A DNA stretch of 36,125 bases from Ktedonobacterales bacterium (GTDB lineage: Bacteria > Chloroflexota > Ktedonobacteria > Ktedonobacterales > JADMIN01), in the NCBI GenBank assembly GCA_025935195.1, contig JAICVS010000030.1:1-36125 (forward strand), written 5' to 3'. This document shows, in pieces, positions 1,576 to 22,256 of the stretch. A program made the translations under genes and the position numbers. The first letter of the stretch is position 1; each line of letters begins with the position of its first letter. Under the pieces are notes generated by a model, which saw only the letters and a list, made by a program, of their open reading frames with translations, was not told where the DNA came from and made no database searches.

Positions 1576-3654
1576 TCAGCCTTGTACGTCGCGCTCGTCG
1601 CGCTCCAGAGTGGGGAGCGCGGAGGTTTCGTGATGCGCACGCGCGGGTATCGGCGGCGCAGCGTCGTGCCGATCCTCTCCGAGCGGTCCGCTGAGCGATG
1701 GGAACGATCGTGGCGACGAGGGAAGATGGGAATTTGGGGCGCTTGGGAAAGCCCTGTCTCCGTGGGCGGATGGTCTGCTGGAGTCGGGAGGCGGCGCGGC
1801 CACGGACTGAGGCAATGGCGGCAGTGGAGGCAAGGGAGCCGACGATTGCGGCAAAGCCCTCGTCGTCGCGCCGCGCGCGACGGGGGATGGCGCGACGACA
1901 TGAGGAGGGGCATAGAGGGGGATAGAAGCCGCTGAGCCTGGGATGCTCACGGCGGGCATAGGCTGTGTGGTGATCTCCGGCGTGGCGGCGGGGGAGAGCG
2001 TGGGGGCCGGCAGCTCTGCCTCGCGCTCCGGCGCCGCGCCGAGGCGGAAGACGCTGATCGAGCGCAGGAGCGCGCGCGCCAGCTCTTCCAGGCGATCCAG
2101 CGCGGCACGACTCTCTTCCATGCTGTCGCGGGTTTGCATGGTGATGTCGGCGATGTCCGCCATCGAGCGCGAGATGGCGGCGGCAGTCTCAGCCTGTTGT
2201 GTGGCCGTGTCGTTCATGACGGCGATGGCTTGTGCCAGCTTCCGTGTGGCAAGATCCACGGCCTCAAGCGCGGCGCCCGCCCGCAGCGCCAGCTCAGACT
2301 GAAGCACGACCTGCTGTGTGCTGTGCTCGATGGCGATGACGACGCTATTCGTCTCGTTCTGCATGCCCTTGATGCGCGCATGGATTTGTTTGGTCGCCTC
2401 GGCGCTGCTGTTGGCGAGGTTGCGGATCTCCTGTGCGACGATGGCGAAGCCACGGCCGTTCTCGCCGGCGCGCGCCGCTTCGATGGCGGCGTTGAGGGCG
2501 AGCAGATTAGTCTGGCTGGTGAAGTCGGAGACCATCTGCACGATCTCGCCGATCTCCTGGCTGCTCTCGCCAAGCCGCTTCATCTTCTTGACGGACTGTA
2601 TCGCCATCTCGCGCACCTGGCTCATGCCCTCGGCCGCATGCTCAGCCGCATCGCGCCCTTCCCGCGAGATTTCGATGGCCTCGTGCGCCTCGCCAGCCGC
2701 CCGATGGGCGATGTCGGCGATGGTGTGGACGCTGGCGGCCATGTCGCCAATGGCGGTCGAGACCTCTAGAATCTGATCTGCCTGGTGTTGGGCGTTGGTG
2801 ACGAGCTGAGTGGCGGCGTCACGCATGCCGGCGGCGTTCTCGGCAACCACCACGCCAGCCTGACGTGTCTCTCGCAGGAGCTTGCTGAGCGCCTCCAGCA
2901 CCGCGTTGAGCGACTCGGCCATCGGTCGCAGCGCCTGATCGTCGGCCTGTACTCGTACCTCCAGATTGCCCTGGCGCACCTGCTCCAGATGGTAGAGCAG
3001 CGCGAAAAGCTGGTCTTCGAGGGCGCCACGTTCCTGTTCACGCTCCTGGAAGAGCGCCGAGGTGTCAATGGCGAGGGCGGCCTGGCTGGCGAACAGCTCG
3101 ACAATCTCCAGGGTCTCGAGGGAAGGAATCTTGCCGTCGTCGGGCTGGTCGAGCGAGAGGATGCCGAGGATTTCCCCCTCGTGACGCGGGCTGTAGAGCG
3201 GGACGAAGAGCACGTCTTCGGGGTGCCAGGCATCGGGGGAGCGCTGGGCACTGGGGGGCTGGGGCGTGTAGACGGTGACACCCTCGACCCCTTCGAGCAG
3301 GTGTTTGTAGAGATGGCTGATGAAATAGGAGCGACCGACACAGAATTCCGGCCGCATCACGGAGAAGAGCCGGGAGACGGCAGGGGGTGACTTGATCAGG
3401 CGTTGGCGCTCAGCGTCGGTCAGGCCAGTGGTGGCGACCACCTCGGCGTACTCGGCGCCCGAAGGGAAGAGGTTGAGCACGGCGACCTGGAAGCCCAGTG
3501 TGCCGCTGATGGCGTCCACAACATGCGCCAGGATGCTCTCAAGCCCCATCTCGGCACGCAGCTCGGTGCCAAGGCGCACGATCTCCTTGATCTGTCGCGT
3601 GCGGCGCTCGACATCGCGATCGGAGCCGCGCCGCTGTACCCAGTTCACGACCAT
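1576..3654 (-). CDS. Cytoplasmic methyl-accepting chemotaxis protein with GAF sensor
   Basis: A soluble chemoreceptor of 692 residues that would signal to CheA/CheW. The order is an N-terminal coiled stretch, a GAF-type sensor (about 30-205, [10 protein letters not shown]...[10 protein letters not shown]), a HAMP-like segment (about 225-265, [20 protein letters not shown]), a long coiled-coil signalling domain with the family hairpin tip [20 protein letters not shown] (about 380-400), then roughly 150 residues rich in Pro, Ala and Ser that look disordered. I see no hydrophobic membrane segment or signal peptide, so it should be cytosolic. The track start is GTG 3684; I prefer ATG 3654, preceded by GAAGAGGGGG at suitable spacing. 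No cheA, cheW, cheR or cheB lies in the window. The ligand is unknown. Confidence 0.9.
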
Positions 3655-14270: not shown

Positions 14271-14287
14271 GAAGGAGGGACGGCCGC

Positions 14288-14875
14288 ATGCGACGACAAC
14301 GAAATCGAATGGCTCACTTGGGATGGGTGATCGCGGGGGTGTGTGGGCTGCTGGTGGGATGCGGCGTGAGCGGGCAGGGCGGCGGCGCGGCGGGCGGCAC
14401 GGCGCCTGCCGCCGATGCGACGGTGGTGGTCAATGGCACGCCGATCCCGTCACAGCGCCTGCCAACGCCGTCATCCACCGTGACGCCGGGCGGGGGGAGA
14501 GCGACGGCCACCGCCACGCCGGGAGCGGTGCGGCTGATGCTCGACAAGGCGGCCTATGCGCCCAGCGATCCGGTGTTGGTCACGATCGAGAATGGGCTGA
14601 ACATGAAGATCGTGGTCAGCGATCACCATACGGGCTGCACATCCGTGCAACTGGAGAAGCTGGCGCAGGGTTCGTGGCAGTCCGCCGGAGGCGTTTGTAA
14701 GCTGCTGACGCCGGTGCGGCTGATCACGCTGGCGCCGGGCAGCGTGACGCCGCAGCGGATCGGCATCCCAGCCGGCGCGAGCGCGGCGGGGACGTATCGG
14801 GTGAAGCTGGTGTATGGCGCGGGCGGCGCCAGCCAGGATGGGGTGGCGCTGTCCGCGACGTTCACCGTTGGGTGA
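14288..14875 (+). CDS. Small exported lipoprotein with Ig-like C-terminal domain
   Basis: A 195-residue lipoprotein. ATG 14288 has AAGGAGGG 8 bp upstream and is followed by a basic N-terminus, a hydrophobic stretch and the lipobox GLLVGC, so I use it instead of the track start at 14126. A Thr/Pro/Ala-rich linker (about 35-80) leads to a beta-rich domain (LMLDKAAYAPSDPVLVTIENG...GTYRVKLVYGAGGASQDGVALSATFTVG) that resembles Ig-like domains of bacterial cell-surface proteins. Two cysteines (TGCTSVQ, GGVCKL) may pair. Function is unknown. It sits between secreted paralogs A and B on the opposite strand, so it may act at the same surface, but that is only positional. Confidence 0.78.
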   Translation: MRRQRNRMAHLGWVIAGVCGLLVGCGVSGQGGGAAGGTAPAADATVVVNGTPIPSQRLPTPSSTVTPGGGRATATATPGAVRLMLDKAAYAPSDPVLVTIENGLNMKIVVSDHHTGCTSVQLEKLAQGSWQSAGGVCKLLTPVRLITLAPGSVTPQRIGIPAGASAAGTYRVKLVYGAGGASQDGVALSATFTVG

Positions 14876-16868: not shown

Positions 16869-17061
16869 CCAAGCCACTCCTCATAACACTCGCGTATCCC
16901 TTGTGCCTCCCGCGCGCTCGCGAGGCGACTGGCCTCTTGTAAGCGATCACGCGGGCCCCAAATCGGCCGTATCCCGCCGGCGGCAGTGTCGAGGCGCTCC
17001 CCGCGCCGCCTCTATGACGGGAAACGATGGATGATCCAATGCGGATGCGATTGGCGCGATG

Positions 17062-17124
17062 TCATCCTGGGTGGCGTCGCCGCCGATCGTGCGCGTCATC
17101 GTGCGCGAAATCGTACTGACGCAT
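17062..17124 (-). pseudogene. 20-codon ORF fused to an orphan leader, upstream of paralog B
   Basis: The ATG at 17124 follows the invariant CGAGAGAGAAGGTTCC block and reads MRQYDFAHDDAHDRRRRHPG, then stops. Only the first three residues match paralog A (MRQ). There is no hydrophobic signal sequence. It is either the start of a lost fifth paralog or a short leader peptide translated ahead of gene B, whose start is 194 bp downstream. Confidence 0.45.
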
Positions 17125-17277
17125 GGAACCTTCTCTCTCGCTGGCGTGCGCCCGGCCCCCGCGTGTTCCGGGCGTTCGAGATGGCGCGGCGCGAATGCCG
17201 CGTGAGGGTTGCCAGATAGCGCGTCGGAGTCCGACTGTTCTCTTGCTGCTCTCTCCTGGTCGGGCCGCCTCCTTTCC
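17125..17277 (-). promoter_or_regulatory. Shared 5' leader, orphan copy B'
   Basis: This copy has the GGAAAGGAG box (17277-17269), a CCCTCACG segment, a small GCGGC/GCCGC hairpin, the main hairpin CGCCCGG/CCGGGCG (17174-17168 with 17155-17149, GGGG in the loop) and CGAGAGAGAAGGTTCC-ATG. The arms differ from copies A and C but still pair. It is followed by only 20 codons, then by gene B. Confidence 0.65.
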
Positions 17278-17280
17278 ACC

Positions 17281-17477
17281 CAAACACAGCCGCGAGCCGG
17301 CGCTCGCGTCTCCCCCCCATGCTATGGCGAGCGGCGGGCGCATCGAGGCGCGGAGATGATTCCAGCAAGTATGGGGCCGAACCAAGGGACGAATGGGCAC
17401 GAATTTGCGGTACGTTCGCCAGACGGAGAGGCAGGTGGAGAGGGGGAGGCGCGTCCGTGCCGTCCTTGCCGATGGAA
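17281..17477. other. Non-coding stretch upstream of the orphan leader
   Basis: No gene is supported here. I looked for a promoter at the ~310-nt distance found for A, C and D. The best minus-strand match near 17370-17400 (TTGGTT, 17 bp, GAATCA) is poor, so I do not annotate it. Confidence 0.4.
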
Positions 17478-17529
17478 CGACACGAAGCCCGGCGGCTCCC
17501 ATGTGGGAACCAAACCGGGCTTCGTGTCG
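17478..17529 (-). terminator. Strong composite hairpin downstream of paralog C
   Basis: A perfect 15-bp stem CGACACGAAGCCCGG/CCGGGCTTCGTGTCG (17478-17492 with 17515-17529) encloses an inner TCCCA/TGGGA stem. It lies 85 bp past the stop of gene C, beyond a first GC hairpin. Confidence 0.65.
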
Positions 17530-17560
17530 AATATCGCAGGGATTGGATCGGGATGGTGGA

Positions 17561-17586
17561 GCGGGCGCTCCCGGGAGAGCGCCCGC
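17561..17586 (-). terminator. First hairpin downstream of paralog C
   Basis: A 10-bp perfect stem GCGGGCGCTC/GAGCGCCCGC with a 6-nt loop begins 28 bp after the stop of gene C. Together with the 17478-17529 hairpin it forms a tandem terminator. Confidence 0.65.
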
Positions 17587-17613
17587 CCGGTCAGTTAGGA
17601 GGCGAGGGGTGAG

Positions 17614-20393: not shown

Positions 20394-22256
20394 ATGCATC
20401 ATCCGAGACGATCTGTGCTGTTGGCTGCTAGCGGCATCGCGCTCGTCGCGCTTGTCACCGGCACCCTGTTCGCGTTCCATGTCACTGGCACGCGCGCGGC
20501 GGCCGGCGCGAACGGCACCCTGACCACGGTCGCTTTCAAGGGCGCCGCCTCGTTGAAGGCGACAGGCGCCGCCGCCACGAAGGGCGGCGACACCAGCCAG
20601 GAGATCAGCCCCGCCGGTGATGTCGGCGAGGAGATTCCGCACTCTTCCACTATCGTCCACGTGGATGCCTCGCACGTTCCGTCGCCGGCCGGAAGCGCCA
20701 TCGCGGCGAGCAATGCGGGCTTCCGCGGCTTCGCCGGCCTCAACCATCTCGATCAGCGGCTGGCGGGAACGGGCGCGTTCGCCGGCACGCAGTTCAGCCT
20801 GGAGCCGCCGGATCAGGCGCTCTGCGCTGGCAACGGCTTCGTCTTCGAGAGCATCAACACGGCCATCCGTGTCTTCCGTACGGATGGCAGCGCGGCGACG
20901 GCGCCGATCGCGATTAACCAGTTCCTGGGGCTGGCGCCGGAAATCATCCGCGGCGCGAACCCAGTCTTTGGGGATTTCACCAGCGACCCGAAGTGCTACT
21001 TCGATGCCACCACGCAGCGCTGGTTCTTCACGATTCTGCAGGCCGATGTCGTGCCCGCGACCGGCGATTTCAGCGGCCGGACGCACGTCTACATCGCCGT
21101 CAGCCAGTCGAGCGATCCGACGGGGGCGTACAACCTCTTCGTGCTGGATACGACCAATGACGGCCTGAATGGCACGCCGAAGCACGCGAGCTGCCCGTGC
21201 CTGGGCGATCAGCCGCTGATCGGCGCCGACGCCAACGGCTTCTACGTCACCACCAACGAGTTCCCGCTGTTTAGCAATGGCTTCAACGGCGCCCAGGTCT
21301 ACGCGGTCTCGAAGGCCGCGCTCGTGGCTGGCAAGACACCCCCGGCGGTGACAATCAACGCGGGCGCGCTGCCCACGCCGGACGCCGGCGGCATCTGGTA
21401 CTCGATTCAGCCGGCGACGGTGCCGGCCGGCGGCGCCTTCAACACGGCGAACGGCGGCACCGAATACTTCCTGAGCGCACTGGATTTCGCGGGCAAGCTG
21501 GACAATCGCATCGCCGTCTGGGCGCTGACCAACACGGCGTCGCTTGGCGGCAAGGCGCCCGCCGTCAGCCTGACCAACGCGGTGATCGCCAGCGAGGTCT
21601 ACGGCCAGGGTCCGGCGCAGATTCAGAAGAACGGGCCGACGCCCTTCGGCGACTCGGTCCACAGCCCTGAGGCGCTGCTGGACGGCAACGATGACCGCAT
21701 GAACCAGGTGGTCTTCGCGGGTGGCAAGCTCTGGTCGGCGGTGGATACCGTGGTGCAGACGCCGAACGGGCCGACGCGCGCGGGCGTGGCCTATTTCGTC
21801 GTGTCGCCGTCGGTGACGAGCGGCCAGGTCGGCGGCGCGATGACGGGCCAGGGCTACGTGGCGGTCAACCAGCAGAACACGAGCTACCCATCAATCGGTG
21901 TGAACGCGGCCGGCAAGGCGCTCATCACGTTTACGCTGACGGGGCCGGGCTTCTTCCCCAGCGCCGCCTACGCGACGATTGACGCGGCCGGCAACACGGG
22001 CGATGTGCATATCGCCGCGGCTGGCGCGGGGCCGGAGGACGGCTTCACGGGCTATAAGTCGCCGGGCTTCGGCGGCACCAGCCGCTGGGGCGACTACTCG
22101 GCGGCGGTGGCGGATGCCGACGGCTCGATCTGGCTGGCGCAGGAGTACATCGGCCAGAGCTGCGGCGATGCGCAGTTCAACGCCGACTCGACCTGTGGCG
22201 GCACGCGCACGCTGTTCGCCAACTGGGGCACGTTCATCAGCAACGTCCAGCCATAA
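20394..22256 (+). CDS. Secreted LEPPDQ/WGDYS-family protein, paralog D
   Basis: A 620-residue exported protein, close to A and C but encoded on the other strand. The signal peptide is MHHPRRSVLLAASGIALVALVTG...TRAAAG. Family motifs are GFAGLNHLDQRLAGTG, SLEPPDQALCAGNGFVFE, SDPKCYFDATTQRWFFT, SCPCLGDQPLIGADANGFYVTTNEFP, NGGTEYFLSALDF, DDRMNQVVFAGGKLWS, TSYPSIGVNAAG, GAGPEDGFTGY, SRWGDYSAAVADADGSIWLAQEYIG, ANWGTFISNV. GAAGG lies 6 bp before ATG 20394. The inferred fold is an extracellular beta-rich propeller; ligand and activity are unknown. A promoter and long leader precede it and a strong hairpin follows. Its divergent orientation to C suggests an inverted duplication. Confidence 0.86.
   Translation: MHHPRRSVLLAASGIALVALVTGTLFAFHVTGTRAAAGANGTLTTVAFKGAASLKATGAAATKGGDTSQEISPAGDVGEEIPHSSTIVHVDASHVPSPAGSAIAASNAGFRGFAGLNHLDQRLAGTGAFAGTQFSLEPPDQALCAGNGFVFESINTAIRVFRTDGSAATAPIAINQFLGLAPEIIRGANPVFGDFTSDPKCYFDATTQRWFFTILQADVVPATGDFSGRTHVYIAVSQSSDPTGAYNLFVLDTTNDGLNGTPKHASCPCLGDQPLIGADANGFYVTTNEFPLFSNGFNGAQVYAVSKAALVAGKTPPAVTINAGALPTPDAGGIWYSIQPATVPAGGAFNTANGGTEYFLSALDFAGKLDNRIAVWALTNTASLGGKAPAVSLTNAVIASEVYGQGPAQIQKNGPTPFGDSVHSPEALLDGNDDRMNQVVFAGGKLWSAVDTVVQTPNGPTRAGVAYFVVSPSVTSGQVGGAMTGQGYVAVNQQNTSYPSIGVNAAGKALITFTLTGPGFFPSAAYATIDAAGNTGDVHIAAAGAGPEDGFTGYKSPGFGGTSRWGDYSAAVADADGSIWLAQEYIGQSCGDAQFNADSTCGGTRTLFANWGTFISNVQP

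Follow-up and report, generated by a model that had tools for sequence, protein, structure and literature searches.

The locus considered here raises the question of why a leader and start codon of a kind carried by two genes of a paralog cluster should open a reading frame of only 20 codons, upstream of a third and divergent paralog, gene B. A first-pass annotation had offered two answers: either a fifth paralog has been lost and B now uses its leader, or the short frame encodes a leader peptide controlling B. The window, i.e. the whole stretch of 36,125 nt that was analysed, is one entire contig (C78) of a fragmented assembly (4.74 Mb, 277 contigs, 87.6% complete), from a class represented by 47 genomes in the collection. 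Among the closest named matches to its proteins, several come from Ktedonobacterales-type Chloroflexota.

The paralog cluster and the affiliation of the orphan leader

Four genes of the window make up the cluster:

13635-11782, minus strand: gene A, a secreted paralog with an intact leader of the orphan type at 13851-13629
16868-15102, minus strand: gene B, a distant secreted paralog (by alignment and tree) with its own GAGGAG ribosome site before ATG 16868
19497-17614, minus strand: gene C, a secreted paralog with an intact leader of the orphan type at 19651-19491
20394-22256, plus strand: gene D, a secreted paralog

Genes A, C and D share 50-58% identity, while B is only 31-35% identical to these three; another contig holds one further B-like copy. 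None of the four proteins matches a Pfam family, and no NCBIfam model scores above cut-off for A, B or C. The structural model of C (pLDDT 83) resembles beta-propellers, for example sialidases and sema domains, at low TM-scores. Judging from this model, A-D would belong to a widespread unnamed family of secreted, beta-propeller-like proteins of ~600 amino acids, for which 117 relatives were confirmed in genomes titled Chloroflexota, Acidobacteria, Actinomycetota and others.

The family tree pairs A with C as sisters (82/96), assigns D to a different clade (fork at 98/95) and sets B apart together with the copy of contig C196 (100/99). The latter forms a long branch whose exact place is unsure, but that B stands far from A and C is certain. 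The leader cassette is exact in A and C and lacking at the start of B itself, while the leader of D contains a looser version, GGGCCGGC...CGAGAAGGTAGTTCATG, read by eye. Since the leader blocks occur with A and C only, and these are sisters from which B is remote, the orphan is a leader of the A/C type. For the same reason, B was rejected as the natural owner of the leader in the ancestral state.

Elsewhere, the cassette was found neither by pattern in 46 genomes of the class, nor by DNA similarity in 40 relatives, nor in the loci around 80 named relatives, and the literature that was searched held nothing on leaders in Ktedonobacteria. The paralogs L012, L024, L025, L026 and L152, which belong to another family within the same order, have a similar ribosome-site context among themselves, GAAAGYGAGG...ATGCGC or near variants, which parallels the invariant block of A, C and the orphan.

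Layout of the leader, its hairpin and its distal box

The orphan comprises the following elements:

17277-17062, minus strand: orphan leader of the A/C kind, then start codon and 20-codon frame
17269-17277, minus strand: GGAAAGGAG(G), distal anti-Shine-Dalgarno complement, with the orphan start codon 152 nt downstream
17148-17174, minus strand: hairpin CGCCCGG...CCGGGCG around GGGG, a 7-bp helix just before the ribosome site
17154-17159, minus strand: GGGGCC, with a merely suggestive alternative pairing with GGUUCC beside the start codon
17118-17140, minus strand: invariant block CGAGAGAGAAGGTTCCATGCGTC, with the ribosome site and the orphan start codon
17062-17124, minus strand: 20-codon frame MRQYDFAHDDAHDRRRRHPG, ATG 17124-17122 to TGA 17064-17062, probably a chance frame

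The coordinates given by the first-pass annotation proved right, both for the orphan, with GGAAAGGAG starting at 17277(-), and for B, which begins 194 bp beyond the orphan frame with its own ribosome site. Its description of the leader as almost identical to those of A and C applies to three blocks, GGAAAGGAG, GGGGCCG and the 23-nt CGAGAGAGAAGGTTCCATGCGTC, which are the only ones common to the three leaders; it does not apply to the leader as a whole, in which the ~110 nt between the shared blocks allow no reliable alignment. The GGGGCCG block lies at about -35 from the start codon, and GGAAAGGAG about 150 nt upstream in the orphan and C and 216 nt upstream in A. Anchored similarity upstream of GGGGCC is weak between the orphan and C (p 0.019) and at chance between the orphan and A (p 0.66).

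The conserved parts are highly specific. CGAGAGAGAAGGTTCCATGCGTC is identical in A, the orphan and C and is found nowhere else in the genome, and its 16-nt core has a single stray match elsewhere, on an unrelated contig, when two mismatches are allowed. The window has exactly three copies of GAGAGAGAAGGTTCCATGCG, in the same three leaders (0 in 100 shuffles), and GAGAGAAGGNNNCATG is restricted to these leaders in the 4.74-Mb genome. No Rfam model matches at gathering scores across the window, and between 11500 and 22500 a search down to E=5 returned only a tRNA and a sub-threshold snoRNA; a known riboswitch was dropped because no Rfam covariance model matched.

Directly before the ribosome site, all three leaders form a hairpin whose 3′ arm follows GGGG. 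The arms are GCAACTCG/CGAGTTGC in A, CGCCCGG/CCGGGCG in the orphan and CGACCCGG/CCGGGTCG in C, with helices of 8, 7 and 8 bp. They differ between leaders and each matches its own partner, in a comparison of three sequences, whereas a 5′ flank combined with the 3′ arm of a different leader yields only 3-5 bp. The joint helix total of 23 bp was reached in none of 20,000 trials with random 31-nt stretches of the window; the MAFFT alignment of these three sequences puts one base of the orphan arm out of place. The stem has thus been maintained in A, the orphan and C through changes on both sides. Because the arms covary and differ among leaders, the orphan is an old leader that diverged independently under the same constraint, and not as a recent copy. 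A fresh duplicate of the leader of A or C was ruled out, as hairpin arms and spacer are unlike both.

In all three leaders, GGGGCC has a second potential partner, the GGUUCC immediately preceding the AUG, and further pairs with AUGCGUC would lengthen this alternative helix, which suggests at most a possible hairpin covering the start codon: when the alternative helix was enforced, 5%, 10% and 3% of random flanks were equally stable, and the folding energies of the whole leaders are ordinary, no better than those of shuffles. Translational riboswitches and RNA thermometers likewise rely on two mutually exclusive hairpins, one of them over the start codon; the present leaders differ from such platforms in having neither an Rfam match nor a recognisable aptamer, in an alternative pairing that is only suggestive, and in being known from one genome.

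The distal box reads GAAAGGAGG in A and the orphan and GAAAGGAG in C, with no start codon in the bases that follow. Its core GGAAAGGAG is found at three places in the window, all of them in the A, orphan and C leaders, and at 39 in the whole genome on both strands. Over 9 nt, GAAAGGAGG matches the complement of a generic bacterial 16S 3′ end, the 16S gene of this genome being absent from the assembly. A strong anti-16S complement within a leader, with no start codon at initiation distance, is also what characterizes STAB-SD. In cry3A of Bacillus thuringiensis, STAB-SD binds the 30S subunit and blocks 5′-3′ decay without initiating translation (Agaisse and Lereclus 1996, reviewed in PMC4113751). 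By this analogy, the GGAAAGGAG box probably shields the mRNA in the same way. The two cases have in common a Shine-Dalgarno-like sequence in the 5′ UTR, more than 100 nt before the gene and without a start codon, and an association with genes of abundant or secreted products (PMC4113751). Unlike STAB-SD, the orphan, A and C leaders add a covarying hairpin and an invariant ribosome-site block; they also belong to a different phylum and are known here from sequence alone.

Boxes of the same sequence are present in other members of the family. GAAAGGAGG lies far upstream of the start codons in L009 (-208), L012 (-165) and L083 (-144), and it recurs in L154 just upstream of a gene starting at 3177(-); in none of these four is there a start codon at Shine-Dalgarno spacing. 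The number of relatives with a box 144-208 nt upstream, three, compares with about 0.6 expected at the background rate, as computed from the control figure. Such distal boxes could possibly reflect a wider STAB-SD-like habit of the genes of the A-D family.

Surroundings of the leader and the region after its start codon

Two further stretches delimit the orphan:

17470-17600, minus strand: two very strong hairpins after C (-76.1 kcal/mol, z -8.25 versus shuffles, with no U-run required or scored)
16869-17061, minus strand: interval from the orphan frame to B, with no signal-peptide core, convincing relic, terminator-like site or good second genome copy

The hairpins are adjacent, with arms of the 17-bp class, CACGAAGCCCGG.../...CCGGGCTTCGTG; they probably end the C transcript before the orphan leader, which for this reason probably relies on a promoter of its own. 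Scans for sigma-70 promoters returned no match for the orphan or A and one for C, and are uninformative. Given that no terminator-like site occurs on the minus strand between the orphan leader and B, read-through from the leader into B is expected, though unproved. That B now uses the orphan leader, as the first-pass annotation had suggested, is thus possible from the arrangement of the sequence.

Past the orphan ATG, no reading frame contains the hydrophobic core of a signal peptide (maximal mean hydropathy of 0.62, as against 2.3-2.9 in A-D). Neither hmmsearch nor tblastn gave a convincing paralog match between the leader and B, and no relic of a paralog 3′ end was found there. The similarity anchored at the orphan start codon is marginal to A (p=0.014 against the window background) and nil to C or D; it corresponds to a possible alignment with a frameshifted relic of the signal peptide of A, for which an earlier and looser shuffle test had given 0.002. 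For the 253 nt after the 23-nt block, the genome offers no good second copy, and mobile or repeated sequence was dropped as an explanation of the interval on that ground.

A probable lost paralog and its alternatives

The favoured reading, with a probability of about 0.52, is that 17277-17118(-) represents the 5′ UTR of a third A/C-type gene, the fifth paralog of the cluster, whose coding body was deleted from about its first codons. It is based on exact blocks shared with A and C only, on a hairpin kept through two-sided changes, on the sister relationship of A and C with B on a long separate branch, and on the lack of a signal-peptide core after the orphan ATG. The marginal similarity to the start of A, the lack of a terminator-like site before B and the strong hairpins that separate C from the orphan leader point in the same direction. 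Against it stand the absence of a convincing coding relic between leader and B, the absence of a promoter match for the orphan (as for A), and the undecayed state of the leader, whereas a long-dead gene should decay. Some 46 constrained positions are undamaged, so that either the gene was lost recently (under roughly 6-7% neutral change) or its leader still has a use. Of the earlier proposal of a lost fifth paralog, the tree upholds the attribution of the leader to the A/C sisters and the compensatory hairpin changes indicate that its divergence is old; a convincing coding relic is missing, so that the loss of the gene itself is only inferred. The arrangement recalls truncated pseudogenes in tandem paralog clusters, in which a promoter-proximal part persists among relatives and the body is missing; it departs from them in having no readable coding remnant and undamaged leader elements.

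According to the lost-paralog reading, the fifth, A/C-type gene would have been deleted from close to its first codons onward, with its promoter and leader left in place. The latter would be of the type described above, with a distal GGAAAGGAG box as a probable STAB-SD-like mRNA shield, and then a hairpin just upstream of an invariant block of ribosome site and start codon. The GGUUCC of this block might act as a switch, with GGGGCC in the hairpin as its alternative partner. Transcription initiated at the orphan leader should then continue into B, whose translation would start at its own ribosome site. The locus would neatly illustrate how a structured 5′ UTR seemingly outlives its gene within a paralog cluster and, if the leader still acts, how an adjacent gene can come to inherit post-transcriptional control through gene loss. 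It also points to leaders combining a STAB-SD-like box with a hairpin on Chloroflexota genes for secreted proteins, for which a limited literature search returned no description. The covarying hairpin, the STAB-SD-like box and the placement of the orphan in the A/C lineage are new with respect to the first-pass annotation.

The main rival, clearly less probable and yet to be taken seriously, is capture of the leader by B: recombination within the cluster would have put an A/C-type promoter and leader before B, with no full fifth gene there earlier. As part of this scenario, the mRNA of B would be stabilised by the leader, serving as a long functional 5′ UTR, and B would be translated from its own site. 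The intactness of all conserved leader elements, the lack of a convincing coding relic between leader and B, and the lack of an intervening terminator-like site are all compatible with capture. However, hairpin arms and spacer are unlike those of A and C, which would require either a third, diverged leader as donor or an old capture event; B moreover retains a complete ribosome site of its own, and the marginal similarity to A extends past the start codon.

It is rather unlikely that selection maintains the orphan leader in the absence of its gene, be it as an inherited stabilising 5′ UTR that tunes B or as a titrator of a factor recognising the invariant block of A and C; if so, the leader of a dead gene would have turned into a regulator of its former siblings.

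An assembly artefact, by which a real paralog between the leader and B would have been lost, is improbable. Paralog clusters are a known weak point of fragmented metagenome assemblies, and the present genome, incomplete and in many contigs, is of that kind. However, identity is limited to 23 nt and the following 253 nt lack a good second copy, which leaves no long repeat on which an assembly could collapse.

The leader-peptide alternative of the first-pass annotation fares slightly worse and can largely be set aside. It would require translation of the 20-codon frame, with its four Arg codons or the position of its stop controlling B by attenuation or coupling. The frame has a well-formed ribosome site and start codon, as do short frames of leader-peptide attenuators upstream of their genes, and RRRR within the first 40 codons is rare (1% of the ATG frames of the window). 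Its length is nevertheless ordinary, since 32% of the ATGs of the window open a frame of at most 20 codons, and the peptide has no more than MRQ in common with A, and MR with C. Both this frame and a second one, which overlaps its stop, end before B, and the interval showed no hallmark of an attenuator, whether a terminator-like site on the minus strand or a coupling of the frame to B. The orphan thus differs from known attenuators in lacking an alternative terminator, coupling and a conserved peptide; B, a secreted propeller-like protein, has no evident link with arginine. An Arg-codon leader peptide was dropped on grounds of frame length, terminator and coupling, and the frame is probably due to chance.

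Least probable of all is a gene-less regulatory RNA, transcribed alone and titrating an RNA-binding protein or small RNA that recognises the A/C invariant block: the 23-nt block is perfect at three places and the neighbouring leader sequence is not, but no terminator-like site would end such an RNA on the minus strand, and no complementary small RNA was found, the sole other two-mismatch match being the one on an unrelated contig.

Two minor observations concern the family at large. A small lipoprotein-like gene, 14279-14875(+), lies inside the paralog cluster, and in the relative L016 a lipoprotein-like gene also follows the paralog. In another relative (L021/L159, on G003:C1 at about 5065399 and below), the copy contains an in-frame TGA in its signal-peptide region; members of the A-D family may therefore be decaying elsewhere too.
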